DNA of 64,000 bases from an uncultured Clostridia bacterium (lineage in GTDB: Bacteria; Bacillota; Clostridia; Christensenellales; Borkfalkiaceae), in the NCBI GenBank assembly GCA_947628505.1, contig CANRAD010000002.1, positions 1-64,000 of the forward strand, in the 5' to 3' direction. Shown here piece by piece: positions 17,706 to 62,072 of the stretch. A program made the position numbers and the translations under genes. Within the stretch, counting starts at the first letter, position 1; the number at the start of each line of letters is the position of its first letter. The notes beneath the pieces are model-generated. The model ran no database searches. It was not told the origin of the DNA and saw only the letters and a program-made list of their open reading frames with translations.

Positions 17706-17715
17706 TTCCTTCTCC

Positions 17716-18459: not shown

Positions 18460-19091
18460 TTTGCAATAAGTTTATCCAATTTCGCCTTGATTTCCGCGAA
18501 CACGCCGTCGGGCGAACCCTTCCCGCCGTGCACCGTTAGGAGCTTGCCCTGCGCCTTATAATAATCGATAAGAGGCGCCGTCTGCTTTTCGTAAGTATCG
18601 AGGCGGGCGGCTACCGTTTCCGGATTGTCGTCGTCGCGGCGATACAGTTTTCCGCCGCACTTTGCGCACGTTGTCGCGCCGTTCAGAGTGGAAACGTGAT
18701 AGCTCTCTCCGCATGCGCAGACGCGTCTGCCGCAGATTCTGTCCATCAGCAATTCCTTGGGCACGTCTATGTTCAGACATACGTCTATTCGGGCGAACTT
18801 ATCGAGTTCGCGCGCCTGAAACAGATTGCGGGGGAAGCCGTCGAGCATATATCCCGAAGCTATATCTTTCTCGGCGAGTCTGTTCTTTACGATATCGCAC
18901 GTTACTTCGTCGGGGACGAGCTTGCCGGCGTCTATATACGATTTGGCAACCTTGCCTATCTCCGTGCCGCCCTTTATGTTGGCGCGGAAGATATCGCCCG
19001 TGGAAATATGGATAAATCCGTATTCTGCGGCAAGTTTGCTTGCCTGCGTGCCTTTGCCCGCGCCGGGCGCTCCGAGTAAAACAATATTCAT
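18456..19091 (-). CDS. adk: Adenylate kinase, zinc-lid type
   Basis: Interconverts AMP + ATP and two ADP. P-loop GAPGAGKGTQ at residues 7-16, AMP-binding STGDIFR near 30, and a long lid that carries four cysteines (CACG ... CAKCGG, about 126-150), the zinc-stabilised lid typical of Gram-positives. 211 aa. Placed between secY and map as in Bacillus. A 151-bp gap separates it from secY. Confidence 0.97.
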   Translation of the reverse strand: MNIVLLGAPGAGKGTQASKLAAEYGFIHISTGDIFRANIKGGTEIGKVAKSYIDAGKLVPDEVTCDIVKNRLAEKDIASGYMLDGFPRNLFQARELDKFARIDVCLNIDVPKELLMDRICGRRVCACGESYHVSTLNGATTCAKCGGKLYRRDDDNPETVAARLDTYEKQTAPLIDYYKAQGKLLTVHGGKGSPDGVFAEIKAKLDKLIAK

Positions 19092-41937: not shown

Positions 41938-43071
41938 TTACATCTGTTTGAGTTCGGTGTAAGCCATGACGAACGGCCCCGTTCCCTTCGCGTCGTTTTC
42001 GACGACGGGCTCGGAGATATAGTATTCAAACGTGCCGTCGCGGCGGCGGTTGTTCTCGGGGCCGAGGCCGGCCACAAGGCAAATGCCGCCGAGATTGAGC
42101 TTTCCGTCAGTCTGTGTGAGATATTTACGGCATATGCCGTCGAATACTTTCTTGCCGACCTTGGCAAAGCGGCCGTCCACCACTTTGAGACGCGCGCCCT
42201 TCATCATCGCATACGCTATCATCGCCGAACCGGAAGTTTCGAGATAATTGCCCTCTCTGCCCATCTGATCGGGAACCTGATAGAACATATCGCCTACGGG
42301 ATCTATATATTGTTCCAAGCCCTCTATGGTCTCGCGGAATATCTTTATGAGCTCGTCTTTGAGTTCTTTCTCCCCGTCGGGAATATAGCTTATGGAGTCG
42401 ACGAGGCCGACGGTATACCAACCGACCGAACGGAGCCAGAACGACTTGGAAAGTCCGGTGTTTTTATCCGCCCAGAAAGCCGTTTTCGACCAATCCCAGC
42501 CGTGATAATACAGTCTTTTTTCCCTGTCGTACATGTTCTCGTATACGCCGCGGAACTGTTTTACCACGTCCGCGAGATTTTTACAGCCGTTCCTCTCGAC
42601 TTCATAGCGCGTGTAAAAGACCTGCGCCATATACAGTCCGTCCAGCCAAACCTGATTGGGGTAAATCTTCTTGTGCCAGAAATTGCCCGTGCCCGTGCGC
42701 GGCTGTTCCTTTACCTGCTTATAGAGAAGTTCTATGGCCTTTTCGTATTTTTCCTTGCCCGTTTCGCGGCAAAGGTCGAACAGCACTCTGCCTTCGTTGA
42801 GATTGTCGAGGTTGTATGTTTCGAGATCGTAGCCTCTTATGGAGCCGTCTTCGAATACGTAATAATCCACGAATTTATCGATAAATTCAAGATATTTTTT
42901 CTCGCCGGTCTGCTTGTAGATTGTGTAAAGCGAAGTCATCATACAGCCGTCGATATAGTTCCACGCGGCGGGTTTGCCGTGCTTTATGTTTTCTATGTTC
43001 CAGATAGGCGCGTCGGGAGTGGTCTCGTCGATGAGCCTGTCTATATATCTGTCTATTACGGAATAATCCAT
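41938..43071 (-). CDS. GH105 unsaturated rhamnogalacturonyl/galacturonyl hydrolase
   Basis: Releases the unsaturated uronic acid that pectin lyases leave at the non-reducing end of oligosaccharides; works in the cytosol. 377 aa (alpha/alpha)6 barrel. The proposed catalytic aspartate is in QVWLDGLYMAQ (D144), the position of D143 in YteR; the substrate-side YNLDNLNEGR (87-96) and the WLRSVGWYTVGLVD segment are also present. The product spontaneously forms the KduI substrate. The ATG at 43069-43071 was chosen because GGGGGG lies five bases upstream; an in-frame GTG seven codons earlier overlaps the GH28 stop. Last gene of the pectin operon. Confidence 0.9.
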   Translation of the reverse strand: MDYSVIDRYIDRLIDETTPDAPIWNIENIKHGKPAAWNYIDGCMMTSLYTIYKQTGEKKYLEFIDKFVDYYVFEDGSIRGYDLETYNLDNLNEGRVLFDLCRETGKEKYEKAIELLYKQVKEQPRTGTGNFWHKKIYPNQVWLDGLYMAQVFYTRYEVERNGCKNLADVVKQFRGVYENMYDREKRLYYHGWDWSKTAFWADKNTGLSKSFWLRSVGWYTVGLVDSISYIPDGEKELKDELIKIFRETIEGLEQYIDPVGDMFYQVPDQMGREGNYLETSGSAMIAYAMMKGARLKVVDGRFAKVGKKVFDGICRKYLTQTDGKLNLGGICLVAGLGPENNRRRDGTFEYYISEPVVENDAKGTGPFVMAYTELKQM

Positions 43072-43088
43072 TGTTCCCCCCTTTATTT

Positions 43089-44627
43089 TCACTCTTCGAT
43101 TACTTCTTTACAGTTGTGCTTTATTACCTTTTCGCCGACTACGCCGTCAAAAGTTACGTTTTTGAGCACGAGGCGCTCCACGTTGTCCACATAAAGTCCC
43201 TCTTTGCAGAAATCGCGCACGTTTTCGAGCATGGCCGGTTTAAAGGGCTTTGCGTCCTCTTTGAAACCGAAACTTACGTTTTCGATGACAATTTCCTTTA
43301 TGGGCTGTTCCACGAGCCCGTCGAAATAGCCGGCCATGCACTCGCAATCCACACATTCGATATCCTTGAAAGTGAATTTGCCGAGATAGGGAGTGCCGTC
43401 GTCCACCGGCGTTGACGGATCGCGCGACCAAACGTATTCGGTATGACCGTCGGGATCGCAGAAATAGTACATATTTATGACGAGCGGAGTTATGACGTTT
43501 TCCATTCTGATGTTCTCGAAGAGCACGCCGTCGATTATGCCGTCCTTGCCTCTGCCGCGGCGGGACTTTATCCTCAATCCCCTGTCGGTGTGCTTGAACA
43601 CGCATTGGCAAACGCTCAGATTGGTTACGCCGCCGCTCATTTCGCTGCCGAGAACTATCGCGCCGTGGCCGTCCTGAAAGAGATCGTTGCGCAAGGTATG
43701 CCTGTTCGCCGGCGTTTTATATGTCTTGCCCATATACAGTTTGCCGCTCTTTATCGCGCAACAGTCGTCGCCGACGCTGAATACGCAGCCGATTATCTCG
43801 ACCTTGTCGCAGCTCTCGGGATCGAGACCGTCCGTGTTGGGCGCCGTATAGGGGTTCTGAATTTTGAGATCGTAAAAACCGAGGTCTTCCGAGAAAAACG
43901 GATGGAGATTCCAAGACGCGGAATTTTTGCATGTTACGCCGTGGAAATACACGTTTTTGCATTTATTGAGAAAGAGCAATCTCGGACGAGCCACTTTTCT
44001 GCCCTTGGGAGTGGCCCACCACGTGGAATTGTCGGCATTGCCGTTTATCGCGCCTTCGCCGACGATTTTTATGTTTTGGGCCTTATACGCGGAGACAAAA
44101 GACTGATGGCAGTCATAGGGAAGGCCCTCCCAGCTCGCCGTTATCTCTTCCCTGCCGTCCGATACAAGGCGGGCGGGAACATAGGGATAATGTTCCTCTA
44201 CCGTATCGCCGAGGAGCTCGGCGCCCTTCCTGATTTCGAGAGTTATATCGCTTCTGAGCACTATCGGCCGAACAAGGAAACTGCCGCCCTCTATAAGCAC
44301 TCTGCCGCCTTGCGGGCAACTGTCTATGGCCATCTGAACGTAATACGTGTCGTCGGAAACTCCGTCGCCCTTGGCGCCAAGCGACTTTACGTCTATGAGC
44401 GCCGTTTCGGAAAGCGTTCTGAAAGTAAGTTTATATTTATCTTCCGGAACTTCCGCAACGTACTCCGCGTCGGGTTGAAGGTCGAACAGCGAAAACACGT
44501 TCGTTTTGAAACGCCCGTAATTTTTGCCGTTCAATTTTACCGTATATTCTTCCGGGCTGTAATAGGGATTGTCGTTTTCGAGTTCAAAACAAGCCGACGT
44601 AGACGATACGAAAAGCAACTTAAACAT
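43089..44627 (-). CDS. GH28 polygalacturonase, exo-type, no signal peptide
   Basis: Hydrolyses the alpha-1,4 bonds of polygalacturonate. 512 aa. Residues about 10-75 look like a fibronectin III-type domain (as in exo-acting PehX enzymes), then a right-handed beta helix from about 78 (VKSLGAKGDGVSDDT). Catalytic and subsite motifs are complete: NTDGLDPESC, GDDCCAIKSG, DGHGAIVLGSE and RIKSRRG. The N-terminus has no convincing signal peptide, so it should act in the cytosol on imported oligomers. ATG at 44625-44627 was preferred because GGAG lies about nine bases upstream; another ATG lies three codons earlier. It overlaps the upstream gene by eight bases. Confidence 0.9.
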   Translation of the reverse strand: MFKLLFVSSTSACFELENDNPYYSPEEYTVKLNGKNYGRFKTNVFSLFDLQPDAEYVAEVPEDKYKLTFRTLSETALIDVKSLGAKGDGVSDDTYYVQMAIDSCPQGGRVLIEGGSFLVRPIVLRSDITLEIRKGAELLGDTVEEHYPYVPARLVSDGREEITASWEGLPYDCHQSFVSAYKAQNIKIVGEGAINGNADNSTWWATPKGRKVARPRLLFLNKCKNVYFHGVTCKNSASWNLHPFFSEDLGFYDLKIQNPYTAPNTDGLDPESCDKVEIIGCVFSVGDDCCAIKSGKLYMGKTYKTPANRHTLRNDLFQDGHGAIVLGSEMSGGVTNLSVCQCVFKHTDRGLRIKSRRGRGKDGIIDGVLFENIRMENVITPLVINMYYFCDPDGHTEYVWSRDPSTPVDDGTPYLGKFTFKDIECVDCECMAGYFDGLVEQPIKEIVIENVSFGFKEDAKPFKPAMLENVRDFCKEGLYVDNVERLVLKNVTFDGVVGEKVIKHNCKEVIEE

Positions 44628-45336
44628 TTGCCTCATTCTCCTTTTTCTTGTTTTTGTTATGGCGCACGATCGCCACTATTCCGTCCTTTATGCCTATCGC
44701 CGCCATATCCACCGCAACGCACAGCGCGCCGAAAAGCAGCGGCTCGACGCCGACGTGGATAAAGCCCTGCGTGTTCGCAGCGACGTTGGCTATATAATTT
44801 ATGACTATATACACGCCGTTGACGCCCATGAGCACGAGAACGTAATAAATCATATTGGCAAAAAACGTCCAATAGGCCTTGAACGGGAAGGGAAACATCA
44901 TAAATGCGTTATATTCTTTTCTGTCCGTCTCGATATATCTGAATATGGGATTGACGAACATATCCACGATGAGCCCCAAAACCGCGCCCGTCAGAACGAG
45001 CGAATCGAGCGAATCGCCCAAACGAATGCCCCACATGACAAAATAGCACACGGCTCCGGCAAACCAGAATTTCACGAATAAAGCCTTTATCCACGCGGGA
45101 ATCTTGCCTAGAAAATCCGTTTTGTAGGGATCGAACTGCTTCTGCTTGCCGCTGCGCTTGTAACTGCCGGAATCGTATACGCCCGTGTTGTCCGCAACGC
45201 CGTAGCTTATGTCCTCCTCGAATACCGGATCCTCGTCTTTCAGAGCGGAAACAAGCTCGTCCACCTTGTCTATTCTGAGGTCGTAATAGTTCTCTATCGT
45301 CGTTTCCTGAAATTTTTTGTTTTTCTTTCTGGACAT
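44620..45336 (-). CDS. Four-helix membrane protein of the pectin operon (unnamed, A)
   Basis: 238 aa. A polar, charged N-terminal region of about 80 residues is followed by hydrophobic segments at about 85-107, 112-132, 150-183 and 198-226, and a lysine-rich end. I do not recognise the family; it lacks the YesL/DUF624 pattern often found in such operons. It overlaps GH28 by eight bases and follows another unnamed membrane protein by 73 bases. The position suggests an accessory subunit of the oligogalacturonide transporter; this is inference. Confidence 0.8.
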   Translation of the reverse strand: MSRKKNKKFQETTIENYYDLRIDKVDELVSALKDEDPVFEEDISYGVADNTGVYDSGSYKRSGKQKQFDPYKTDFLGKIPAWIKALFVKFWFAGAVCYFVMWGIRLGDSLDSLVLTGAVLGLIVDMFVNPIFRYIETDRKEYNAFMMFPFPFKAYWTFFANMIYYVLVLMGVNGVYIVINYIANVAANTQGFIHVGVEPLLFGALCVAVDMAAIGIKDGIVAIVRHNKNKKKENEANV

Positions 45337-45409
45337 ATTTTACCCTTTTGTCAAAATAACCGACAAAACGAATTTTGCCGGTTATTTCCGATATTGAAAA
45401 ATGTTTGAC

Positions 45410-46123
45410 TTAACCTTCTTCGCTCGTGTCGATCTCTTCCTTCATATCCGTGGAAGCGATTTCCTTCTTGGTGTTTATCTTGTTTATGAGCTTGCCATAG
45501 AGAGGATAAGTTGCGGTAAGCAACGCCGCTACGGCCACAAACACCGCGTGAAGAAGCGTTCCTATAATCGCCGCGGGCATATACTTTTCACGAAGCGCCA
45601 CGTCTGCGGGCTCCCACGTATCGACTACGTGCGCCCATTCTCCCGACCAATTCACATAGAGCAAAATGTCGAGCGTTATCATTACCGCCATAAACACGAA
45701 AGTAAGCACAAGCATTACAACCTTGGGTTTCTTTTCGCGCTTGGGGAACGAATACATGAACAGCAACAATACAAGTATGCAGAAAAGCGTGTTTACGAAT
45801 ATGCTTATGGGCACGCCGCTTTTCGAAAATTCAAGTCCCGTCTGTGAGAAGTTGCCGAGTTCGAGAAGATAGATAAGCGAAGATACTATGAGCACGAAGA
45901 ACGCTATGTTCATCGGTCTGCGCTTTAACTTAACCACAAACTTGCGGCACTTTTCCTTTATGTACGGAAATACATTCGATAATTTCGACTCTTTTTTCTC
46001 GCAGAGCTCTACGTCCTCCGCGCCTTCGGCGACTTCGGGAGTTTCCGTGGCGTTCTCCGTCGTTTCAAGTTCTTCAACCTGCTCTTCAACGACTTCGTCT
46101 TTTACGTTTTCATTCTCAGCCAT
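45410..46123 (-). CDS. Four-helix membrane protein with acidic N-terminus (unnamed, B)
   Basis: 237 aa. The first 45 residues are extremely acidic (runs such as EVVEEQVEELETTE), then a basic patch (KLKRRP) and four hydrophobic segments at about 70-90, 104-126, 133-156 and 182-208, and a short acidic end. No family recognised. It starts 13 bases after the ATPase stop codon, with a good site (AAGG) before the ATG, so it is co-translated with the transporter ATPase. Confidence 0.8.
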   Translation of the reverse strand: MAENENVKDEVVEEQVEELETTENATETPEVAEGAEDVELCEKKESKLSNVFPYIKEKCRKFVVKLKRRPMNIAFFVLIVSSLIYLLELGNFSQTGLEFSKSGVPISIFVNTLFCILVLLLFMYSFPKREKKPKVVMLVLTFVFMAVMITLDILLYVNWSGEWAHVVDTWEPADVALREKYMPAAIIGTLLHAVFVAVAALLTATYPLYGKLINKINTKKEIASTDMKEEIDTSEEG

Positions 46124-46136
46124 TTTCCTTACCCCC

Positions 46137-47234
46137 TTACATTATCGCCTTACCGTATTCGGTAATCTTGCCGTTTTCGTCGGTTACGGGCAAATCGAAG
46201 AAGTGCATGAGCTCTTCGTCGAAACCGATATCGATCTCGTCGCCGCTCTTATAGTTGCACCACTCGGCGAACTTGCACACGATACTCTTGACGCCGGCCA
46301 CCTTGCCGTGAACGAGAGTGTTCATTCCGAGGTTTTCGTTATTGGTTATATTGAGCTTAATCTTGCCGGTACGCGTTACGTTCTCCGGGCGCACGCCCAA
46401 AATAACGCTCTTTCCGTCGTACTCTTTCAAAGCCTCCGCCTGTCTTGCGCTGAGCGGATACTCGAAGAGATCGCACACGAACTTCTTGCCCTCTATCTTT
46501 CCGTCGAACATGTTCATGGGCGGAAGGCCTATGAACGTCGCAACGAACGTGTTCGCGGGCTTTTCGTAAAGTTCGATGGGCTTGCCTATCTGCTGAATAT
46601 GTCCCATCGACATGCAGACTATTCTGTCGGCGAGCGTCAACGCCTCAGTCTGGTCGTGGGTTACGTACATTATGGTTGCGTTGAGCTTTTTATGAAGGAG
46701 TATGAGCTCCCTTCTCATCGAACCGCGGAGTTTTGCGTCGAGGTTCGACAACGGCTCGTCGAAGAGGAAAACCTTGGGATTACGCACTATCGCACGGCCC
46801 ATGGCAACACGTTGGCGCTGTCCGCCGGAGAGCTGACGGGGCTTTTTGTTGAGCTGAGTCTTCAAGTCGAGAATCTCGGCCGCCGCCATAACTTTCCTGT
46901 GGATTATTTCCTTGCTTTCCTTTCTGAGCGTAAGCGAAAACGCCATGTTTTCGTATATCGTCATATGGCCGTACAGAGCGTAGTTCTGGAAAACCATCGC
47001 GATATCTCTGTTCTTCGGGGGGAGACGGGTGCAATCCTTGCCGTCGATTATAAGCGTTCCCGCGCTTATATCTTCGAGGCCGGCAACCATTCTCAGAGTT
47101 GTGGACTTGCCGCAACCCGAGGGGCCTACGAGCACTATGAATTCGCCGTCCGCGATATCGAGATTGAAATCGTATACCGCCTGAACGCCGCCGTCGTATA
47201 TCTTATCCAGATGCTGAATATTTACTTCGGGCAT
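46137..47234 (-). CDS. MsmX/UgpC-type sugar ABC transporter ATPase (first copy)
   Basis: 365 aa ATPase that powers CUT1-type sugar importers. Walker A GPSGCGKSTT (about 37-46), Q-loop MVFQNYALYGHMT, signature LSGGQRQRVAMGRA, Walker B VFLFDEPLSNLDA, H-loop THD. The C-terminal 130 residues form the regulatory OB-fold (MOP-like) domain of this group. Unlike most Bacillota, where one distant MsmX serves many importers, this ATPase is encoded inside its importer's operon, between the unnamed membrane proteins B and C. Its start overlaps the previous stop by one base. Confidence 0.95.
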   Translation of the reverse strand: MPEVNIQHLDKIYDGGVQAVYDFNLDIADGEFIVLVGPSGCGKSTTLRMVAGLEDISAGTLIIDGKDCTRLPPKNRDIAMVFQNYALYGHMTIYENMAFSLTLRKESKEIIHRKVMAAAEILDLKTQLNKKPRQLSGGQRQRVAMGRAIVRNPKVFLFDEPLSNLDAKLRGSMRRELILLHKKLNATIMYVTHDQTEALTLADRIVCMSMGHIQQIGKPIELYEKPANTFVATFIGLPPMNMFDGKIEGKKFVCDLFEYPLSARQAEALKEYDGKSVILGVRPENVTRTGKIKLNITNNENLGMNTLVHGKVAGVKSIVCKFAEWCNYKSGDEIDIGFDEELMHFFDLPVTDENGKITEYGKAIM

Positions 47235-47863
47235 TATTGCACCTCCTCTTCCTTTGCTTCTTCAGCTTCGGAACGAGGCGCCTCTGCGACCTCGTCTTCT
47301 TCCTCGGCCGCCTGCACTCTTGCGGCGTCTTCCTCGTCCATTTCCTTAACGACCTGCACTATATCGATATTCTCCTCTGCCAGCTTCTTCATGTGGAGTT
47401 CGAGTCTCGTGCACTGTATAAAACTGATTACGGCCGAACCGACAAGGCATGCCGCGCTCCCTACGAGGTATACGAGGAGTATCGTAAATTCCACTTCGCT
47501 CGTCGTGGGATAATATCCGAAATATCCGGCGGTGAGTAGATTGTGCTGCAAACCGTAAAGCGGATATCCGAATATTCTGAAAATCTGGAACGCCGCGATA
47601 ACTATAAGCACATAGCTGTACGCCTTTTTATAGTTCTTGACGCTCTCGGACGAGAGGAATATCGCAAGCAACAACACGAGAGTGAGAATTATCGATAAGC
47701 CTATATCTATTCTCGTGAAATAGCTATCCTGATACGCATACAACAACATAAAGTACAGACAGTTGAACACGAGGCCCAAAAGCGCGAGCATCTGCCCCCA
47801 TTTGTTCTTCTTATAGCGCATTATGTCGTCTGCGATTAATTTCTGATTCGGTGTTTTTTCCAT
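47234..47863 (-). CDS. Four-helix membrane protein with acidic C-terminus (unnamed, C)
   Basis: 209 aa. Hydrophobic segments at about 22-45, 52-72, 80-103 and 125-152, followed by a C-terminal tail of about 45 residues that is almost half Glu/Asp. No family recognised. The stop codon overlaps the ATPase start by one base, giving tight translational coupling, which favours a physical partnership with the ATPase. Confidence 0.8.
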   Translation of the reverse strand: MEKTPNQKLIADDIMRYKKNKWGQMLALLGLVFNCLYFMLLYAYQDSYFTRIDIGLSIILTLVLLLAIFLSSESVKNYKKAYSYVLIVIAAFQIFRIFGYPLYGLQHNLLTAGYFGYYPTTSEVEFTILLVYLVGSAACLVGSAVISFIQCTRLELHMKKLAEENIDIVQVVKEMDEEDAARVQAAEEEDEVAEAPRSEAEEAKEEEVQ

Positions 47864-47865
47864 AA

Positions 47866-48498
47866 TTATGCAACCTCCTCGCTTACTTCTTCGGCAACCG
47901 GAGCGGAAGCGTTAAGCAACTTCTTTTCGCCGATCATGAGCGTAACCTTCCAGGCTACGTTCAAAACGAGCACTACCGCGTTGACGATAAATACGGAAGC
48001 TACGGCATAGGCAAATGCGGGAGTCCAGAACGAATATTCGAAAGGATTCGAAGGGAAAGCGGCATTCCAGCTCTGTTCAACCGCGTCCCAACCTACCGTC
48101 GTGGACATCTGAGCAACATAACTTTCGCACTCACCTACCATTACGAATATCATAACGGCAAGAGCTATGTAGTAGGCTACCGTGGCTGCTATGGATATAT
48201 AATTAGTTATGTAGTATTTACGTCTCGAATGACAAGCGGTTATGAAGTTCACCGCCGCCAGAACTACCGCTACTATTCCCAGAGTGAGAAGCTGATTGCT
48301 CACGTTCTGAGAACTGTCCGCGATACTTTTTGCGCATTCTCTCATAGGCCGCGAAAAACGTCTCGCAGAGCCGTTGGCTATAGTGCTTATATCGCTGAAC
48401 GTGCCGCTGCAAAAGCATACGGCAAGCACTATGCAGAGCGCGCCGACTATCAAAGTCGCTATCATCAGAATTTTCTGAAATCTCATTTGAGTTTTCAT
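47866..48498 (-). CDS. Four-helix membrane protein (unnamed, D)
   Basis: 210 aa. Hydrophobic segments at about 10-32, 70-92, 103-127 and 160-192; a serine/arginine-rich loop between the first two could be outside; short acidic C-terminus (VAEEVSEEVA). No family recognised. ATG at 48496-48498 was preferred to an upstream in-frame TTG. It lies between the solute-binding protein gene and protein C, two bases from the latter. Confidence 0.78.
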   Translation of the reverse strand: MKTQMRFQKILMIATLIVGALCIVLAVCFCSGTFSDISTIANGSARRFSRPMRECAKSIADSSQNVSNQLLTLGIVAVVLAAVNFITACHSRRKYYITNYISIAATVAYYIALAVMIFVMVGECESYVAQMSTTVGWDAVEQSWNAAFPSNPFEYSFWTPAFAYAVASVFIVNAVVLVLNVAWKVTLMIGEKKLLNASAPVAEEVSEEVA

Positions 48499-48608: not shown

Positions 48609-51600
48609 TTAGACTGCAGGTTTGATTTCATCCCAATAACCTACAAGGTCAGCCCATGCCTCTTTGATGTATCCTTCAAGAGTCGAAAGGTTATTGTTGC
48701 TTCCGCCGTAGTTGCTGTTGAGCATTTCGATTACGCCGGCCGCAGTTCCGGGGATATTCTTGTTAAGATCGGAAACTACGCTTATCTGCTTGGTCTGATC
48801 GAAACCGTAGTACATGATATCGGTGAGAAGGTTCGAAGCATTATTTTTGTCTGCATAGAAGAAGTTCTTACCGGAGCCGCCCATACCGCTTATATACTGC
48901 AAGCCGCCGTCCTTGAGCGCGTTAATGGTATCCGTATCGAAAGGAAGAAGCGTCGTGGGAAGGGTGTACCACCAGTTTTCGGAATCCATAACGGGTTTCG
49001 TGTGTTTGATGGTTTCGTTTACGAGCGCTATAGCCACTATATCCGAACCGCCGAGGCCGCACGTTGCCGTGCACTGATACTCGAAGGACTGATCCTTAAC
49101 GCCGAGGTTAAGGCAGGAGCCGAGGAGATAACGCGCATGGTTCGTGAAGTTGCCTTTCGAGCCGTTCTTGAACATATCGAGGTTCTCGGTCGTAAGGGTG
49201 GGAGTCATCTTGCCCTTGTAGTACGTGCCGGTGTAGAGCTTGTTCTTGTACATGAACGCCTGGCCTTCGTACTCTTCGGTTACGAAATACTGTTCGTTGT
49301 CGTAAGTATCGATAACGCCTGCCTCTTTAAGAGCTTCGAGATCTGTAGGCGAAGCTCCGCCGATATTCTCGGCAACTGCCGTGCCGTACCATGTGCCGTA
49401 AGTATCGTTTACGGTCTTGCCCGAAGTTCCGGTTACGGTTACGTCGCCTGCCGTGGACTGAGGTCCGAACGTCATGAGTATCTGTCCGTCGTTGGAGTAG
49501 AAGTAGTCGATGAACGCAAGCACTGCGGAAAGTCTTTCGGCATTGCCTCTTACGTAAGCCTTGGGAACGCAGAAGCCGCCATCCTTAACGCCACGCCAGC
49601 TCTCGGTGAATCTCATTATGTCGTCATGCTCGCCGTCGCCGTCAACATCCCACTTGGATACAGCCGTAAGTATGGGAGCGTATTCATATCCTACTCCTAC
49701 CTTATCGGCGTTTATTATCGCATTTTTAGTCTGCGTCTGAACGTAGTCCGTGGAGGAGTAGAACTGTAACTGGTTGGTGTTTACCGTGCTGTCCTTTATG
49801 GAAGCGCCGCCGTCAAGAGCTTCCGTGCCGGTGTAGTAGATACCTTCCTTGGCCATCGCGTTCATGTTGGCAAGAGCCGCCCACATTTCCTCGTCGTTGC
49901 GGGCGTCGTGAATTTCGCCTTCGCTATCTATATAGGTGTAGAGGTTTGCGTATCTCGAAGTGAGGCCGCGCACGCCGTAGAGTTCGCCCGCCATGGAAGC
50001 TATATCGTAAGTTCTGTTGGTAAAGCCGGTACGCGAACCGAGCATGTAAGTTTGTTCGGCTGCTCTTACGTCCTCGGTGAGAAGGTCGTTGCTGCATATG
50101 AGGCATCTTCCGAGAGCTACATAGAGGTCTACGTCCCATGCCGCATACGCGCTGTTGAATATGTCGGAGAGCTTATGAGTTGTGCCGTCATAGAAAGGAG
50201 TTCCCTTATGTCCGGTCTGATAATAAGCTACCTTGATGTATTCCTGAAGAACTTTGATAAGCTGAGCGCCGGTAACCGAGCCGGTCGTCTCGTCTATCAT
50301 ATAGTTCATTATATCTACTATGTTGCCCGACTTGGTGCCAGCCGTCGTGGTAAGCGCGTCCAGGCTGGTAATCTGGCTGCCGGAGCCTGCCGCCTTAACG
50401 GCCGTTGCAAGCGCGGATTCCGTGCCGAGAGCTTCGATAACCGCGTCGTAGTCTACGGTCAGCTCTACGGTCTTCATCTTGTCGGCGTCTGCAACTTTCG
50501 TGCCTTCGCCGTTGGGACCGGTGGTTACAACGGTAGGATCGGTTACTTTGATTGTCCAACTGCCCGTCTTGCCCATGAACGACTTAACGGAAGACTGAGA
50601 ACCGTCAACGGTTACAACGCCCTTCTTCTCGTATGCGTTTTTAGCGGTTGCCTGCGCCGAGAAGGTGCCGGTTGCTGCTGCAACGTCTGATGCGTCGAGC
50701 ACGTCTCTTACGAGATCCTTGCGGATGAGTACATACTTCTCGATATCGTCGTTACCGTCGAAGTAAGGAAGCATATACATCGCGCCGTAATTTTCGTTGG
50801 GATCGTCAACTTCGCCCTTCCATGCGTCCGCAACGAGCGAAAGTCTTACTATGGGGTTGGCTTCGAGGAATGCCTTATAGTTGGGCATATAGTCGAGGTA
50901 ATCCGTGATGTTGAGGAAGGAATCGTTCGCGCTCTCCTTTACAATCTCGGAAGCCGAAGCGGTGATAATGCCGTAGTTGCCGAGCGTTTGGGCTGTTTTA
51001 AGAGTTTCGATAACCTTGCTGGCTTTCGGGCCGCCGCCCGCAACCCAATCGTCGGAGATAGTTACCTTCAACTGATTTGCAAGAGCTCTCCATGCGGGTT
51101 TCAAGTTTCCGGAAACGTATTTGACGCCGCCGAAAATTGCCTCGGAAGCGCCCGAGCCGCCCAACGTTGCTATCTGGTCTGCTCCGAACGTAATACCCGT
51201 AGCATCTTTTTCATAGCCTACATAGGTTTTGAGCGTCATGTTGGCGGTGTAAGAAAGTTTGCCGTTGTCCGTCTTGGGGGTTAAATCCGTGGGAAGTTCG
51301 GTGCCGGGGCCGGGGCCGGGGCCGGGGCCGGGGCCGGGAGTGATTGTTCTGTGATAGTTGCACACATTGCAATATTCGTCTTCGGCATCATCGTAAGAGT
51401 GCTGTGCTTCTTGCAACTTCTCGCCGCCTTCCACGCATGTATGCCAATGGGTGGAGGAGTCGTTATGCCACGTAGTGGTGGAGTCGGGCGTATGCGTAGT
51501 ATGCGACGGATTGCCGCCATCACCGCCTTCCGGTGCACAAGCCGCAAACGAGAACGCCATTGTTCCTGCCATCACGGTTGAAACAACCGCGGCGGCAATT

Positions 51601-51617
51601 TTTTTGTACTTGTTCAT
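48609..51617 (-). CDS. Very large sugar ABC transporter solute-binding lipoprotein
   Basis: 1002 aa extracellular solute-binding protein, about twice the usual 430-560 aa. Lipobox FSFAAC with C27 as lipidation site. Next come a His/Cys-rich segment (C61, C83, C86; THWHTC ... CNVCNYH) resembling the small zinc-ribbon-like repeats of surface proteins of Clostridia, and a poly-Gly-Pro linker (about 94-105) encoded by a GGGGCC hexanucleotide repeat. The binding domains then follow, with AMYMLPYFDGNDDIEKYVLI and GGFCVPKAYVRGNAERLSAV typical of LplA-like proteins. The extra length lies mostly in insertions between these. Genes for two permeases come first in the same operon. Confidence 0.88.
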   Translation of the reverse strand: MNKYKKIAAAVVSTVMAGTMAFSFAACAPEGGDGGNPSHTTHTPDSTTTWHNDSSTHWHTCVEGGEKLQEAQHSYDDAEDEYCNVCNYHRTITPGPGPGPGPGPGTELPTDLTPKTDNGKLSYTANMTLKTYVGYEKDATGITFGADQIATLGGSGASEAIFGGVKYVSGNLKPAWRALANQLKVTISDDWVAGGGPKASKVIETLKTAQTLGNYGIITASASEIVKESANDSFLNITDYLDYMPNYKAFLEANPIVRLSLVADAWKGEVDDPNENYGAMYMLPYFDGNDDIEKYVLIRKDLVRDVLDASDVAAATGTFSAQATAKNAYEKKGVVTVDGSQSSVKSFMGKTGSWTIKVTDPTVVTTGPNGEGTKVADADKMKTVELTVDYDAVIEALGTESALATAVKAAGSGSQITSLDALTTTAGTKSGNIVDIMNYMIDETTGSVTGAQLIKVLQEYIKVAYYQTGHKGTPFYDGTTHKLSDIFNSAYAAWDVDLYVALGRCLICSNDLLTEDVRAAEQTYMLGSRTGFTNRTYDIASMAGELYGVRGLTSRYANLYTYIDSEGEIHDARNDEEMWAALANMNAMAKEGIYYTGTEALDGGASIKDSTVNTNQLQFYSSTDYVQTQTKNAIINADKVGVGYEYAPILTAVSKWDVDGDGEHDDIMRFTESWRGVKDGGFCVPKAYVRGNAERLSAVLAFIDYFYSNDGQILMTFGPQSTAGDVTVTGTSGKTVNDTYGTWYGTAVAENIGGASPTDLEALKEAGVIDTYDNEQYFVTEEYEGQAFMYKNKLYTGTYYKGKMTPTLTTENLDMFKNGSKGNFTNHARYLLGSCLNLGVKDQSFEYQCTATCGLGGSDIVAIALVNETIKHTKPVMDSENWWYTLPTTLLPFDTDTINALKDGGLQYISGMGGSGKNFFYADKNNASNLLTDIMYYGFDQTKQISVVSDLNKNIPGTAAGVIEMLNSNYGGSNNNLSTLEGYIKEAWADLVGYWDEIKPAV
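51304..51338. repeat. GGGGCC hexanucleotide repeat coding for a Gly-Pro linker
   Basis: Five perfect tandem CCGGGG units (51304-51333) and one partial unit on the plus strand; the coding strand reads CCCCGG repeats giving alternating Gly-Pro. Changes in copy number keep the frame and only lengthen or shorten the linker. The plus strand has repeated G4 runs and could form a G-quadruplex. Confidence 0.95.
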
Positions 51618-51684: not shown

Positions 51685-52614
51685 TTATTCTTTTACGCCG
51701 CCCATGTTAACGCCCTTCGCGAAGTACTTCTGAATGAAGGGATAGATAACAAGGATGGGGATCATGGCCATAACGACCATTGCATAAGCTACCGAAGTGC
51801 CCTTGCCGAGGGAAAGCGTCGCCGTATCGGCGCTGTATGAACCGGTGAGCGCCGTCTCCTCTTCGAGGAAATCACGCATGTAAACCTGAACGGGCCACGA
51901 ATAGCTCTGGCCTGCGGCCTCGGTTACGCGATACGCCCAGAAGTAGCCGTTCCAACGGGAAATTCCGAAGAACAGAGCAACCGTGGCGATAGTCGCCTTG
52001 CTCATGGGGATATACACCTTTGTGAGAATCTGCAACTCGGTTGCGCCGTCTATTCTCGCCGCTTCCTCTATTTCGGAGGGAACGCCCTCGAACGCGTTTC
52101 TCAAAAGGATTATGTTGGTGGCGTTCATGCCCATCGCAAGAACTATGAGCCATTTGAGGTCGATATCCGACCAGCTGCCTGCGCCTACCATTTTCGCCAT
52201 TACTTCGCCCGTCGTCTGATAGTTGAGGTACTGAGGAACGACGCCTGCCGAGAACCACATCGTGAATACGAGGAAGAAGTTCCAGCCGTGTCTGCCCAGA
52301 AGTCTCTTCTTGGAGAGCGCATAGGCGCCGAGTATCGAATAGATAAGGCACCAGATGGTTCCTATGAACGTTACGAACAGCGTGTTGGAATAGTTTATCC
52401 AGAACTTGGGGCTTTCGAATACGTACATGAACGCTTCCGTCTGGAATCCGACGGGCCAAAGCACTACTTTACTTGACTGAACCGCCGTGAAATCGCTGAA
52501 CATCGAGCTGAGCGCGAACAGAAGGGGATATACGCACATGAGCGCAAATACCGTGAGAAGGAAATAAGCTATAATCTTGAATATAAGCTCGGAAATTTCC
52601 ATTTTACGTTTCAT
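51685..52614 (-). CDS. Sugar ABC transporter permease, LplC/YtcP-type
   Basis: 309 aa membrane subunit with six helices. The cytosolic EAA loop that grips the ATPase is EIEEAARIDGATELQILTKV (about 181-200). GGAGG precedes the ATG at 52612-52614. Similar permeases pair with LplB-type partners in Bacillota importers of oligouronides and other plant sugars. Fifteen bases downstream of its partner. Confidence 0.94.
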   Translation of the reverse strand: MKRKMEISELIFKIIAYFLLTVFALMCVYPLLFALSSMFSDFTAVQSSKVVLWPVGFQTEAFMYVFESPKFWINYSNTLFVTFIGTIWCLIYSILGAYALSKKRLLGRHGWNFFLVFTMWFSAGVVPQYLNYQTTGEVMAKMVGAGSWSDIDLKWLIVLAMGMNATNIILLRNAFEGVPSEIEEAARIDGATELQILTKVYIPMSKATIATVALFFGISRWNGYFWAYRVTEAAGQSYSWPVQVYMRDFLEEETALTGSYSADTATLSLGKGTSVAYAMVVMAMIPILVIYPFIQKYFAKGVNMGGVKE

Positions 52615-52629: not shown

Positions 52630-53682
52630 TTAGTACAACGATACGTCCGCGGCTCTCTTGGCGATTGAGTTCGCGCCGATAACGAGGATCATACCTATAA
52701 GATTGTTTGTCATTTCGCCGGCGATACCGTAAGCCTGCTGTAAATAGCCGAGCTTGTTGTTCGCCCACGTGGATACTACCGTACCTACATTGTAGTTGTC
52801 CGCCGAAGGATCGGGGCAGAGAAGGTAGAGCTTTTCATAGCCTACGGAGAGAAGTCCGCCTATCTTCATTATGAGCATTATTACGACCGTTGAGAGGATG
52901 CTCGGGATAACGACGTATCTCATCTGAGCCATCTTGCCCGCGCCGTCTATCTGCGCCGCCTCGTACGAGGTGGGCGATACGGCTATAACCGCCGCGAAGA
53001 ACACTATCGAATCGTAGCCCGCGTGTTCCCAGATATCCGTTACTATGTATATAGGTCTGAAATACTCAACCGTATATACAAGACCTTGGTTGAGACGGGC
53101 GTGGAGCGTGGGCGACGAGGAAATCATTCCCAGAAGCTGGGAGATAACGCCTATCGAGCTGCCGCCGGTGTTGCCGCTGAAAAGAGCGAGCGTGAGCGAG
53201 GTTACTATAACGGTGGAGATGAACTTGGGAAGGTATACGCATACCTGCATTATGCTCCTGACCACGTTCGAGCGGACCTCGTTGAAGAAGAGCGCGAGGA
53301 TTATGGGCATGGGGAAACCGAAAAGCAAGCCGTAGAACGCCGTTATGAACGTGTTTCTGAACGCCATCCAGAAACCGGCGGCCTCGCCTCCCACAAAGAT
53401 CGTGCGGAAGTTCTCGATGCCCACCCAAGGGCGCTCGTTCGTATGCTGGAAATCGCCGTATCTGAAAGCCGCCGTCAGCTCGGTCATGGGCGCGTATTTC
53501 CAAAGGAGATACACGACGATCATGGGAACGAGCATGAGGTAGAGGCGCCAATCTTTCAGAATAGTGAAGCCGGCCGTCTTCCACTTGTTCCGCTCTGTTT
53601 CGTCCCTTACCTGCTGTTCGGGAGACATCGAGTATGTGCCCGTCGCCTCGTCGTAGATAAGGAAGTCATCGCATTTAAACAT
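52630..53682 (-). CDS. Sugar ABC transporter permease, LplB/UgpA-type
   Basis: 350 aa. A polar N-terminal tail of about 40 residues precedes six helices; the EAA loop reads SYEAAQIDGAGKMAQMRYVV (about 237-256). First gene of the pectin operon. A GGAGG site precedes the ATG. The promoter region upstream contains two dyads and -10 boxes without -35 boxes, pointing to regulated transcription. Confidence 0.94.
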   Translation of the reverse strand: MFKCDDFLIYDEATGTYSMSPEQQVRDETERNKWKTAGFTILKDWRLYLMLVPMIVVYLLWKYAPMTELTAAFRYGDFQHTNERPWVGIENFRTIFVGGEAAGFWMAFRNTFITAFYGLLFGFPMPIILALFFNEVRSNVVRSIMQVCVYLPKFISTVIVTSLTLALFSGNTGGSSIGVISQLLGMISSSPTLHARLNQGLVYTVEYFRPIYIVTDIWEHAGYDSIVFFAAVIAVSPTSYEAAQIDGAGKMAQMRYVVIPSILSTVVIMLIMKIGGLLSVGYEKLYLLCPDPSADNYNVGTVVSTWANNKLGYLQQAYGIAGEMTNNLIGMILVIGANSIAKRAADVSLY

Positions 53683-53922: not shown

Positions 53923-54603
53923 TCAGCCGTCGAGGTCTTCGTCGTGCCGCCTCAATATCGTGAGGCTCTCCTCGTCGATATCGATGGGCTTTTCGCCGAA
54001 CTCGTCCACTCTCGCCTTTTCGAGCCTCTCCTTTTCGAGGCGGAGAAGGTAATGCTTCTGGTCTTCGAACACGCCGTCGAGCCTGCGGACTATCAGAACT
54101 ATGACTATCGCCACGGCCGGAGTGAAGAAGTCGAACGCGATGCCCAGAAGGCTTTGGACGAAGTTCACCGAAAAGCACGCCGCCACGGCGCATCTGCCGA
54201 GAGAGGAAGTTATCCACGCAAAAACAACGAATAGAGCCGAAAAGTACCACTTTTCAGCAATTTTTTGTTTTCCCGGCCACAAAAACGCCAAAAGCACGAG
54301 TGCAATCGCAAGATTGCCTATGCCGTATATCGCAAACGACTGAGGGGCAATGCCCGCCGCGCCGTAGTTAAGGCCGCAATACAGTAACCCGTCGGCCACG
54401 GCGTATATAACGCCCTGCCATCCCCAGCGCATCATTACTATCGCCACAATGACCGGCATGGGGGAAAAAGTAAATTCGCCGTGAAGCGCGATCTGAGAAT
54501 AATGAACTATCAGATCAAACCCGAGAAGTATGCCCGCGAAAATAAGCGAGTCCGTCAGACGATACTGTCTGAATGAAATTAACCTTGAACCGTTTTTTCG
54601 CAT
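53923..54603 (-). CDS. Membrane protein resembling ECF transporter S components
   Basis: 226 aa with about six hydrophobic segments in the first 170 residues (first at 18-40) and a charged cytosolic tail of about 55 residues. The arrangement, and motifs such as FSPMPVIVAIVMMRWGWQG with glycines in helices 2-3, resemble substrate-capturing S components of ECF vitamin transporters, but I cannot assign a substrate and the similarity is only of general form. The leader (about 57 bases) contains a small AGAATG-taa-CATTCT hairpin and the ATG has no clear ribosome binding site. It faces away from the pectinesterase gene. Confidence 0.7.
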   Translation of the reverse strand: MRKNGSRLISFRQYRLTDSLIFAGILLGFDLIVHYSQIALHGEFTFSPMPVIVAIVMMRWGWQGVIYAVADGLLYCGLNYGAAGIAPQSFAIYGIGNLAIALVLLAFLWPGKQKIAEKWYFSALFVVFAWITSSLGRCAVAACFSVNFVQSLLGIAFDFFTPAVAIVIVLIVRRLDGVFEDQKHYLLRLEKERLEKARVDEFGEKPIDIDEESLTILRRHDEDLDG

Positions 54604-56220: not shown

Positions 56221-57633
56221 TTAAAATCCGAAGTATTCCGCCGCGTTGTTATAGCAGATATCCTCTACAATCTTGCCCAAACGAGGCAACTCGCTTGCGG
56301 GATATTGTCCGCTTTCAACCAACCTGCCGAGCATCTGGCAGAGTATTCTTCTGTAATACTCGTGGCGGGGATATGCGAGGAAGGAACGGCTGTCTGTGAG
56401 CATGCCCACGGACTGCGCGACGAGCCCGACCTGCATAAGCGTTTCGAGGTTCTGGCGCATGCCGTCCTGCTGATCGAGGAACCACCATGCCGTGCCGACC
56501 TGCACTCTGCCCTTCACTCCCTCTTTCTGGAAGCAGCCCGCGAGTACCGTCAATGCATAGTTGTCGCGGGGGTTGAGGCAATAGAGAATGGTCTTGGGAA
56601 GTTCTCCGTCCTTGTCTATCTCGCCGAGGAGAGCGGAGAGCTTTTCCATATATACGGCGTCCTCTATGGCGTCGTAACCCGTGTCGGGGCCTATTTTTTC
56701 GAGCATGCTCTTGGAGTTGTTGCGCAAAGCGCCGATGTGGTATTGCTGTACCCAACCGTATTTTGCGTATTCCTTGGCGAGCGCAATGAGAACGTAGCCC
56801 TTGTACTTATCCTGCTCGTCAATTGAAATATGTTCGCCCTTCATTCCTTTCCGGAATATCTTGTCGGCTTCTTCGTAAGTTGCGGGAGCGTAGCAAACCA
56901 CGTCGAGCGCGTGGTCGGAGAGCTTCGAGCCCATCGAATCGAAGAATTTGATTCTCTCGGCGAGGGCGTCGAGGAGATCCTGCAAGCTATTTATGGGCTT
57001 TTTGACTACGCCCGCGAGCTGGTCAACCCAGCTCCTGAACCACGAGAGCTCCACGTTTATGGCCTTGTCGGGGCGGAACGCGGGACGAACGCGCACTTTG
57101 AGCGTCTTGTCCTCGTTCATCTTCTTGTGCCATTCGAGGCTGTCCACGGGATCGTCGGTAGTGCAGACCGTCTTTACGTTGAACTTATACATCATCTCGC
57201 GCGCCGTGAGCGTTTCGAGAACTTTATTGGCCTTTTCCCATATACGGGGAGCGTTTTCGGCGTTTATTATGTCGTCTATGCCGAAATATCTGCGCATTTC
57301 GAGGTGCGACCAATGATAAAGGGGATTGCCCACGAAATAGGGCATGCTCTCGGCGAACTGCATGAACTTTTTGTAGTCGTCGTCGGGGCCGGAAATGGAA
57401 TCCTCTTCATAGCCCCTCGCGCGGAGGGCGCGCCACTTGTAATGGTCGCCGTATCTGTCGCCCGCGCCCAACCAGACTTCCGCGAGATTTCTGAACTTCT
57501 TGTCCTCGTATATCTCCTTGGGTTGAAGGTGGCAGTGATAGTCTATTATAGGCATCTTCTCGGCGTGCTCGTGATAGAGCTTTTTGGCCGTTTCCGTGTC
57601 GAGAAGAAAGTCTTTATCCATAAATTCTTTCAT
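56221..57633 (-). CDS. uxaC: Uronate isomerase (glucuronate/galacturonate isomerase)
   Basis: Turns D-galacturonate into D-tagaturonate (and glucuronate into fructuronate). 470 aa, the normal length for this amidohydrolase-superfamily TIM barrel. Metal-binding IDYHCHLQP (30-38) is present, and the family's WRALRARGYEE and TTDDPVDSLEWHK follow. Its ATG shares one base with the uxaA stop (TAATG). Last gene of uxaB-uxaA-uxaC. Confidence 0.97.
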   Translation of the reverse strand: MKEFMDKDFLLDTETAKKLYHEHAEKMPIIDYHCHLQPKEIYEDKKFRNLAEVWLGAGDRYGDHYKWRALRARGYEEDSISGPDDDYKKFMQFAESMPYFVGNPLYHWSHLEMRRYFGIDDIINAENAPRIWEKANKVLETLTAREMMYKFNVKTVCTTDDPVDSLEWHKKMNEDKTLKVRVRPAFRPDKAINVELSWFRSWVDQLAGVVKKPINSLQDLLDALAERIKFFDSMGSKLSDHALDVVCYAPATYEEADKIFRKGMKGEHISIDEQDKYKGYVLIALAKEYAKYGWVQQYHIGALRNNSKSMLEKIGPDTGYDAIEDAVYMEKLSALLGEIDKDGELPKTILYCLNPRDNYALTVLAGCFQKEGVKGRVQVGTAWWFLDQQDGMRQNLETLMQVGLVAQSVGMLTDSRSFLAYPRHEYYRRILCQMLGRLVESGQYPASELPRLGKIVEDICYNNAAEYFGF

Positions 57634-59105
57634 TATAAAGTTACCCCCGTTTTGAATATTGCTATTTCTTTTGTGTGATTGAGTTCGTTCTTTGTGGGCT
57701 TGCCGTTGGCCGTTTCCACAACAAGATCTATGAGCTTTTCAAGCTGGACGTCGAAATCGCTTTCAAGCACCGCGCCGGCGTTGAAATCTATCCAATTGGA
57801 CTTGTTCTTCGCAAGATCCGAATTCGTGGCGATTTTTATCGTGGGAACGAAGCCGCCGAAAGGCGTTCCTCTGCCCGTTGTGAACAGCACGAGGTGGCAG
57901 CCGGCCGCCGCTATATTGGTTACCGCGCACATGTCGTTGCCGGGACCGTTGAGGAGGTTCAATCCCTTGCTCGTTACGAAACCGTCGTCGAATACCACGT
58001 CGTTTACCGGTCCTTTGCCCGATTTCTGAGTGCAGCCCAACGACTTGTCTTCGAGGGTGGTTATGCCGCCCGCCTTATTGCCGGGCGAGGGATTTTCGTG
58101 GGTATCCTGTCCGTTGCTTATGAAATACTCTTTGAACTCGTTTATGAGCTTAACAACCTTTTCGAAAGTCTTTTCGTCTTTGGCTCTGTTCATGAGTATC
58201 TGCTCTGCGCCGAACATTTCGGGCACTTCGGAAAGCACGGTAGTGCCGCCGGCCGCAACTATATAGTCGGAAAAACGACCTACGAGCGGGTTTGCGGTTA
58301 TTCCCGAAAGCCCGTCCGAACCGCCGCATTTCAAGCCGACTTTCAAACACGATATGTCCTTTTCAACCCTCTTGTCGCCCTTTATGACGTCGGCAATCTC
58401 CTTCATGAGGGCAAGTCCGGCCGATATCTCGTCTTCCACTTCCTGGCAGACGAGGAATTTTATTCTCGACGAGTCAACTTCTCCGAGAGACTCTTTGAAA
58501 GCAGCCATCTGGTTGTTTTCGCAGCCTAAGCCGAGAACGAGCACGCCGCCGGCGTTGGGATGGCGAACCATTTTCTGGAGAATGAGTTTGGTTCTCTCGT
58601 GGTCCTCGCCGAGCTGGGAACAGCCGTAGGGATGAGTGTAAGTGAACACTCCGTCAAAGCCTTCCGTTCCGTACTTTTCCCTGAACGTCTCGACGAGCAG
58701 TTTGGCCTGTCCGTTTACGCATCCGACCGTGGGTATAACCCACAGTTCGTTTCTTATGCCGACTTCGCCGTTCGCGCGGGGATATACCATAACTTTGCGG
58801 GGTTTTACCGAGGGAAGATCGGTTGCCACCTTATGATAGGTATATTCGAGCTCGCCTTTGAGATTGGTATGAACGTTGTGCGTGTGCACGTGCTCCCCGA
58901 CGGCGATATCCGCCGTGGCGTGCGCTATGGGATTGCCGTATTTTATGACGTTTTCACCTTTTTTAATCGGTTTTAACGCAAACTTATGTCCTTTGGTTAT
59001 ATCTTCCGCAAGCGTTACGCCTTCGTGCTTTTCTCCCTTTTTGAGGTCGCATAAAGCTACGGCGACGTTATCGGCGGGATTTATTATAATTGTCTTTTTA
59101 GTCAT
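57633..59105 (-). CDS. uxaA: Altronate dehydratase
   Basis: Dehydrates D-altronate to 2-keto-3-deoxygluconate (KDG). 490 aa with the N-terminal SAF-like domain (DNVAVALCDLKKGEKHEGVT, then AVGEHVHTHNV near 68) and the long C-terminal catalytic part (YPRANGEVGIRNELWVIPTV, TGRGTPFGGFVPTIKIATNS). Overlaps uxaB by eight bases and uxaC by one. Confidence 0.97.
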   Translation of the reverse strand: MTKKTIIINPADNVAVALCDLKKGEKHEGVTLAEDITKGHKFALKPIKKGENVIKYGNPIAHATADIAVGEHVHTHNVHTNLKGELEYTYHKVATDLPSVKPRKVMVYPRANGEVGIRNELWVIPTVGCVNGQAKLLVETFREKYGTEGFDGVFTYTHPYGCSQLGEDHERTKLILQKMVRHPNAGGVLVLGLGCENNQMAAFKESLGEVDSSRIKFLVCQEVEDEISAGLALMKEIADVIKGDKRVEKDISCLKVGLKCGGSDGLSGITANPLVGRFSDYIVAAGGTTVLSEVPEMFGAEQILMNRAKDEKTFEKVVKLINEFKEYFISNGQDTHENPSPGNKAGGITTLEDKSLGCTQKSGKGPVNDVVFDDGFVTSKGLNLLNGPGNDMCAVTNIAAAGCHLVLFTTGRGTPFGGFVPTIKIATNSDLAKNKSNWIDFNAGAVLESDFDVQLEKLIDLVVETANGKPTKNELNHTKEIAIFKTGVTL

Positions 59106-60546: not shown

Positions 60547-60877
60547 AACTGACACTCCGGAAATTTTATTTTGTTTGAGGAAATATTCCTCGGTTTATCC
60601 TCGGCCGTGCGCGTTTTACGGCAAAACGCCCGCAAACGGCGCCCGCATGCGCCGAAACGCAAAACCGCGGACGAACAATCCGTCGACGCTTTCGGGCGCG
60701 TATGACTGCGCGCGCAACTTCCGAAGCAACGCGACAAAGCGCCGCTTCCGTGCGGACGGATTCGGGAAACTATGCGGGAAAGGCGTTCCTTAAAATACGG
60801 CGGGAAATTTCCGCTGAGGATAAATTCCCGCCGTCAAGGTCTTCGGAACTCACCTCTTCCCGTTTTGCAGAGATTTT
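60547..60877 (-). promoter_or_regulatory. uxa upstream region with an operator-like dyad; no gene seen
   Basis: 331-bp gap between the second ATPase and uxaB. It contains the perfect dyad GAGGAA-ata-TTCCTC (60577-60591) and, next to it, two tandem CCGAGGA units on the minus strand, plus a hairpin GCGTTTT/AAAACGC (60611-60629). A TAAAAT close to uxaB has no acceptable -35. No terminator with a T tract follows the ATPase, so read-through into uxaBAC is possible. Confidence 0.5.
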
Positions 60878-61975: not shown

Positions 61976-61998
61976 TTGTTTGTTTTCCCCTATATAAA

Positions 61999-62027
61999 AT
62001 TTTAATTTAAACTGTTTTGGTCCGCAA
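61999..62027 (-). promoter_or_regulatory. Candidate promoter of the second ATPase gene
   Basis: Minus-strand TTGCGG (62022-62027), spacer 17, TAAAAT (61999-62004). The hexamers and spacing are the same as in the candidate before rpsM. Confidence 0.35.
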
Positions 62028-62072
62028 AATTCCCGAGCCGTAAGCGCCGTAAAATTCTGCGCGTCTGAAAAT

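Follow-up and report, generated by a model that had tools for sequence, protein, structure and literature searches.

Within a 64,000-nucleotide stretch (the window) of contig CANRAD010000002.1, from an uncultured Clostridia bacterium, a run of minus-strand genes reads up1-P1-P2-binding protein-D-C-K-B-A-GH28-Glyco_hydro_88 protein. P1, P2, the binding protein and the ATPase K encode the core of an ATP-binding cassette (ABC) importer, which together with up1, D, C, B and A we refer to as the module. D, C, B and A are small membrane proteins whose genes flank that of the ATPase. We consider it rather probable that these four, mostly together with up1, serve as dedicated accessory subunits in a clostridial importer that takes up uronate oligo- or polysaccharides derived from pectin. 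The genes of the module, in order of transcription, are as follows (aa, amino acids).

53923..54603, minus strand: up1, 226 aa with about six hydrophobic segments, the module's first gene and a fifth accessory membrane protein
52630..53682, minus strand: P1, permease, AlgM1 relative (Pfam BPD_transp_1; phmmer match to 4tqu_M, AlgM1, E 9.2e-54)
51685..52614, minus strand: P2, permease, AlgM2 relative (Pfam BPD_transp_1; phmmer match to 4tqu_N, AlgM2, E 6.5e-65)
48609..51617, minus strand: large binding protein, AlgQ1/AlgQ2 relative, 1002 aa, a lipoprotein judging from its N-terminal end
47866..48498, minus strand: D, 210 aa, four transmembrane segments, with the motifs MKTQMRFQKIL... NKRRNYYITNY... 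LMKGEKxLL
47234..47863, minus strand: C, 209 aa, four transmembrane segments, acidic C-terminal tail
46137..47234, minus strand: K, MalK/MsmX/AlgS-type ATPase, 365 aa
45410..46123, minus strand: B, 237 aa, four transmembrane segments, acidic N-terminal tail and a conserved cytoplasmic C-terminal end, KLIxKINTxK...ID
44620..45336, minus strand: A, 238 aa, four transmembrane segments, conserved N-terminal segment YYDLKxDxVDELVxALK

The core importer and its gene neighbourhood

The window coordinates bear out the initial annotation, which had placed D-C-ATPase-B-A between the binding protein and GH28 with closely spaced genes and had noted that two permeases are already encoded upstream (P1, 53682..52630; P2, 52614..51685). 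In the window, two bases separate D from C, the stop of C and the start of K have one base in common (TAATG), and B follows K after 13 bases. We take the ATG at 48498 as the start of D, backed by the 65-row D alignment; the list of open reading frames gives a TTG at 48504, two codons earlier. Sites resembling promoters or terminators were no more frequent than in shuffled sequence.

Both permeases find their best matches in the Protein Data Bank (PDB) in AlgM1 and AlgM2 of the alginate importer of Sphingomonas sp. A1, and the next best matches are far weaker (phmmer, E 4.2e-5 for P1 and 7.3e-8 for P2). The binding protein is more divergent: as a single sequence it matches nothing in the PDB at E up to 0.1, and Pfam assigns neither it nor its relatives to a binding-protein family. 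A profile built from 36 of these proteins places AlgQ1/AlgQ2 nearest (E about 3e-12), followed by 5gub (8e-9), and a lipobox-type cysteine, Cys27, is invariant in all 36. K carries the ABC_tran, OB_MalK and TOBE_2 domains (Pfam), scores above the NCBIfam cut-off as a UgpC-type ATPase, and has MsmX of Bacillus subtilis as its best PDB match, followed by the ABC ATPase 7x0q and, third, AlgS (7.7e-101). The locus thus holds permeases of the AlgM1/AlgM2 kind, an AlgQ-type binding protein and a MalK/AlgS-type ATPase with its regulatory domain; because these four proteins match AlgM1, AlgM2, AlgQ and AlgS, the core is, as judged by homology, an AlgM1M2SS-AlgQ-type importer.

AlgM1M2SS-AlgQ1/Q2 (PDB 4tqu, 1y3n, 1j1n) is accordingly the nearest solved relative of both permeases and the binding protein, and passages of PMC9314435 describe it as taking up whole alginate. 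It differs from the module in several respects: its host is Gram-negative, counterparts of D, C, B, A and up1 are not among its matched chains, and AlgQ measures 490-516 aa compared with 707-1002 aa for the 36 binding proteins of the module. The protein in 5gub is Smon0123 (PMC5430744, in part), the binding protein of the Smon0120-0123 glycosaminoglycan importer of Streptobacillus moniliformis, whose gene cluster also encodes KduI according to the same portion of that paper.

Three further features, all on the minus strand, bear on the substrate.

43089..44627, minus strand: GH28, a frequent, not obligatory, neighbour of A
41938..43092, minus strand: Pfam Glyco_hydro_88 protein, unsaturated uronyl hydrolase type (labelled GH105 in our analysis; GH88-type hereafter)
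56221..62942, minus strand: uronate catabolism genes encoding UxaC, UxaA, a mannitol-dehydrogenase-type (UxaB-like) protein, a second MalK-type ATPase and a KduI/IolB family protein

Since GH28, GH88-type, UxaC, UxaA, UxaB-like and KduI-type genes adjoin the module, the substrate appears to be pectin fragments, and this neighbourhood suggests uptake of uronate polymers or long oligomers. The likeliest start of GH28, at 44627, lies 8 bases inside the end of A, and by eye we saw no clear signal peptide in the GH28 protein. An AraC-family regulator gene (40241-40984), encoded on the opposite (plus) strand close to where the pectin cluster ends downstream, is a candidate regulator.

The second MalK-type ATPase of the window (60878-61975, minus strand, within the uronate catabolism cluster) is 53% identical to K, and other genomes have a comparable second ATPase close to the module (loci L067, L085, L087, L090, L095, L097 and L103-L106). 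Of 203 conserved positions, 53 distinguish K from ten such ATPases, and residues 84-134 account for 15 of these (Fisher p 0.005 when the remaining positions are set at 295); this region was picked post hoc and the second group is small, and we give these K-specific positions little weight as evidence. The window's own genome also contains an orphan second copy of the large binding protein (L192 on G000:C23, 7903-10707; profile E 3e-291), which might feed the same importer; it adjoins a 2674-aa protein (10625-18649) with leucine-rich repeats of the BspA type.

Four four-helix proteins and up1

We aligned 61 C, 63 B, 65 D and 61 A proteins (250 in total) and compared these and up1 with Pfam, NCBIfam and the PDB. 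No consistent family emerged, only scattered weak matches. For the window's own D, C, B, A and up1, every Pfam and NCBIfam match fell below the curated cut-offs, and among the matches listed for the 250 members no Pfam family reached more than nine members of any one protein at E up to 0.01. The widest at this threshold were TgpA_N (9 of 65 D), DUF6057 (8 of 63 B) and DUF4293 (6 of 61 C), and the lowest E-values belonged to ABC2_membrane_2 (1.7e-5, in 3 of 63 B) and MpPF26 (2.2e-5, in 1 of 61 C). Sequence-profile searches of the PDB with the five proteins returned nothing under E 0.2. The suggestion that this is a previously undescribed set of membrane proteins has therefore held up, as the profile searches assigned its members to no known family. 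Likewise, among the papers listed by searches of the open PubMed Central literature, covered by titles and abstract openings, none names such subunits.

Small multi-helix membrane proteins of the YesL/DUF624 family lie near the genes of LplB/YtcP-type importers. DUF624 is unmatched among the Pfam families listed for the 250 members at E up to 0.01 (for B, as judged from 25 of the 32 families), unmatched by the window proteins at E up to 1, and not among the families listed for up1. Descent of D, C, B and A from a common ancestor was not established by profile comparison either: hhalign gave 55.6% for C and D over 58 columns, 21.1% for B and D, and less than 5% for the remaining four pairs. AlphaFold2 models of C and A have a mean predicted local distance difference test score of 92.3 and 81.0, respectively, and no gene fusions among module parts were found at E under 1e-6.

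The family profiles agree with the four helices per protein proposed at the outset, each of the four showing four hydrophobic segments between two end segments; the proposed set of four was incomplete, as it missed up1, the fifth membrane protein (53923-54603). From the distribution of basic residues, both ends of D, C, B and A are predicted to lie inside the cell. Conservation is unevenly distributed along this topology. In all four proteins the cytoplasmic loop between helices 2 and 3 carries a mean information of 2.9-3.6 bits, compared with 1.1-1.6 bits for the outer loops, and both ends of A and D, the N-terminal end of C and the C-terminal end of B are conserved as well (2.1-3.1 bits).

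This pattern bears on the proposal that the set is a localization module for the huge binding protein. The D gene directly follows that of the binding protein, as such a role might predict. Against it, the lipobox-type cysteine found in all 36 aligned binding proteins belongs to the binding protein itself, and D, C, B and A vary in their outer loops; contacts are thus more plausibly made in the membrane or through the middle cytoplasmic loop than by an outer tether, and we regard localization as very improbable.

A second proposal, that the proteins act as a regulator sensing the energy state or ions through acidic tails, fares no better. Where three strongly acidic tails had been described, we find two in the window, at the N-terminal end of B (net charge -14) and the C-terminal end of C (-13), and two mild ones, at the C-terminal ends of B (-5) and D (-4); the ends of A carry -2 and +3. 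Regulation of this type of ATPase by a partner protein has a precedent in EIIAGlc acting on MalK (PMC10710835, in part), and the short C-terminal end of B stays acidic both near the window and in more divergent rows of the alignment (medians -5 and -6). The long tails, in contrast, have median charges of -5 (C) and -3 (B) in 50 rows near the window for each protein and of 0 (C, 10 rows) and +1 (B, 12 rows) in the more divergent rows, in which the tail of C is reduced to about two residues. These rows come from loci L075, L077-L081 and L083-L097, labelled Clostridia, Oscillospiraceae, Lachnospiraceae, Ruminococcus and others. Since the long tails are shrunken or lost there, they appear to be lineage-specific, and we think it highly unlikely that sensing through them is the function of the set.

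Linkage across genomes

From 385 relatives of K we took the best 80 (70-88% identity to K) and examined the surrounding loci. The order up1-P1-P2-binding protein-D-C-K-B-A, for the parts found, is kept in 80 of 80, which is more than chance. Among loci with a sufficiently long stretch, 78 of 78 have D, 80 of 80 C, 79 of 79 B and 75 of 75 A, along with the binding protein (78/78), P2 (73/73) and P1 (72/72). The gene for up1 was found in 71 of the 80; eight of the nine exceptions have a stretch that starts less than 6.2 kilobases (kb) before K, and at the remaining locus, L059, 686 bases separate the beginning of P1 from the end. Median spacings in this set are -4 bases for D-C, -1 for C-K and +12 for K-B.

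As these 80 loci are best matches, we also anchored the survey on C and on A. A search with C of 101 genomes of the family matched 15, 12 of them strongly, giving 13 loci; D and K adjoin C in all 12 besides the window's own. A matched in 74 of 398 genomes of the family, at 78 places and in two of 18 genera, and in 15 of 250 genomes of a second family. The module is present in 14 extended loci of the second family as far as the contig or stretch reaches (L239 and L245 end before P1), and it is complete in the fifteenth genome (G413, locus L105). The A-anchored set consists of 76 loci, namely 75 of the 78 places plus G413, on contigs that largely overlap the ATPase-anchored set; the places omitted are G090:C8, which the C-anchored survey covers as L007, a fragment of 38 residues in G912 and a weak match in G938:C43. 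Where there is room, B accompanies A in 72 of 72 loci, C, D and a MalK-type ATPase (E under 1e-20, of either kind) in 42 of 42, the binding protein, P1 and P2 in 41 of 41, and up1 in 37 of 37. The four proteins thus co-occur beside ABC transporter genes in the genomes examined, and the tight tie to this transporter that had been proposed from one genome is seen in both the ATPase- and the A-anchored loci.

Absence is shared as well. Of 20 same-genus genomes listed without A, 13 were checked for the binding protein and 12 had no match at 1e-10; in the remaining one, G942, both copies run off the contig inside D. The set is not general to this class of importer, as indicated by whole-genome counts (the flanks beside other permeases being too short to reach D in this order): G413 has seven P2-type matches (E up to 1e-8) with one C and one A, and G046 and G057 each have four with one A, while the window's genome has one of each. 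Beyond these groups the proteins are rare. C matched in 5 of 391 genomes of the class, including one weak match (G174) and one strong match at a contig end (G362), and A in 1 of 398 genomes of the phylum, the window's own; a broader A profile matched 2 of 226 genomes of the class, both already known. Weak C matches in G017, G065, G074 and on contig C7 of the window's own genome had no module parts nearby; the only module-like matches in these regions were two ABC ATPase-type matches to the K profile in L110. G1296 was rejected as a carrier, its region holding just one ATPase-type match.

In 58 loci, tree distances among P1, P2, the binding protein, D, C, K, B, A and up1 correlate at 0.50-0.88 (A-K, 0.84); calculated without species-tree control, these values point to co-inheritance rather than contact. 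On contig JAJQDC010000044.1, two copies of the run from up1 to A (L066 and L067) lie about 20 kb apart with identical internal spacing and differ downstream, L067 having a shorter GH28 open reading frame and no GH88-type match; this is either a tandem duplication or an assembly artefact.

The enzymes next to A invite a different explanation, in which the four proteins would form a membrane platform that keeps the GH28 and GH88-type enzymes where chains leave the importer and lets them trim each chain on its way out. In 74 of the 76 A-anchored loci GH28 lies at most 600 bases from A, and in 49 of the 75 loci with room a GH28 start codon is available 8 bases inside the end of A; the distances of A and GH28 correlate at 0.75, and the N-terminal segment of A is conserved. 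The association is nonetheless incomplete: 5 of 75 loci lack GH28 within 700 bases, L104 and L106 have none beside A, and none was found in L239 (a short contig), L244 and L248. In L104 the place of GH28 immediately after A is taken by another member of the binding-protein family (4657-7065). In L097 the gene after A (9271-10668) encodes, as judged by eye, a putative GH4-type enzyme, which would fit galacturonate cleavage.

A divergent relative of the module, L249 (G1241:C4:57000-76500, module at 3879-14870), has the order P1-P2-binding protein-D-C-K-(B)-A. With the search space set to 100 pieces, the E-values are 3e-99 for P1, 4e-113 for P2, 5e-64 for the binding protein, 2e-5 for D, the weakest link, 1e-7 for C, 2e-132 for K and 1.6e-13 for A; used as a query, the A of L249 in turn matched pectin-type A elsewhere at up to 1.9e-11. 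The position of B is occupied by a 163-aa hydrophobic protein with no profile match, and upstream, where up1 was not found, lies an IclR-type regulator. Downstream are genes for a DUF4962 protein and for one matching the Heparinase II/III C-terminal and Alginate_lyase families, and L249 is probably a uronate-polysaccharide importer of different specificity. Because L249 keeps the order beside these other, lyase-like genes, the accessory set seems to follow the type of transporter and not GH28 or the pectin enzymes. The A of L249 also lacks the conserved N-terminal segment, and a platform for the enzymes strikes us as unlikely, even though only one locus of this type was found in searches with A of the second family and the class.

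Possible roles of the accessory proteins

Taken as accessory subunits, D, C, B and A would work as follows. The core would consist of the AlgM1M2-type permease pair, presumably two copies of K, and the AlgQ-like lipoprotein. The four proteins would insert into the membrane with both ends inside, and their conserved cytoplasmic segments and membrane helices may pack against the permeases and K. There they could stabilize the large complex or tune its coupling during the passage of long, negatively charged chains, and the imported chains would then reach intracellular GH28 and GH88-type enzymes. The tight D-C, C-K and K-B spacing suggests matched synthesis of these proteins.

Several observations weigh against this reading. 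Linkage in an operon would fit assembly factors or regulators too. Compared with the permeases (mean distance 0.33-0.34), D, C, B and A have diverged 1.5 to 1.9 times as far (0.50-0.64), and the ends that carry the long acidic tails, the C-terminal one of C (1.54 bits) and the N-terminal one of B (1.64 bits), vary as much as the outer loops do. Related importers also manage with fewer parts. The chains matched in 4tqu, the only ones considered, are AlgM1, AlgM2, AlgS and AlgQ2. In liposomes, Smon0121-0122 with two Smon0120 respond to binding protein and substrate, so that a pair of permeases with a pair of ATPases is enough for stimulation, and the consulted part of that paper describes no accessory membrane proteins (PMC5430744). 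In B. subtilis, YtcQP-YteP with MsmX participates in the uptake of polygalacturonan and rhamnogalacturonan, according to passages of PMC5730181, and thus handles similar substrates with standard parts: it relies on the multitask ATPase MsmX, and the complex predicted in passages of PMC11466899 is the standard MsmX2-YtcP-YteP-YtcQ.

The same linkage would arise if the four were dedicated factors for the assembly, membrane insertion or quality control of a large importer, remaining outside the working complex. Their joint occurrence and their closeness to the ATPase gene are equally compatible with this, and the conserved middle cytoplasmic loop fits it too. It would be unusual, however, for one transporter to need four to five separate factors among which profile comparison established no relationship, and a relative assembles without them (PMC5430744, in part); we consider assembly factors a rather unlikely explanation. 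An extension of the accessory-subunit reading goes further, to a nine-gene importer in which an AlgM1M2 core and four or five membrane subunits would carry out cytoplasmic import of long acidic chains in Gram-positive bacteria, as a functional counterpart of systems that handle polymers in Gram-negative bacteria, such as SusCD, with the L249 branch taking another uronate polymer and the others pectin. This version we hold only tentatively and think rather doubtful.

The standard description of a maltose-class sugar importer is a pair of permeases, a pair of ATPases and a binding protein, and the nearest relatives of the present system to have been studied work in this way. Here such a core, itself already known, is accompanied by four or five membrane proteins without a named family. 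This holds for all examined loci with room, which span at least two bacterial families, and the set is new relative to the libraries searched. If these proteins are subunits, they would represent an undescribed architecture for a type I importer, give five protein families that are blank in those libraries a testable role, and offer a possible explanation of how these bacteria, which are known chiefly from gut metagenomes, import large charged fragments of the plant cell wall.

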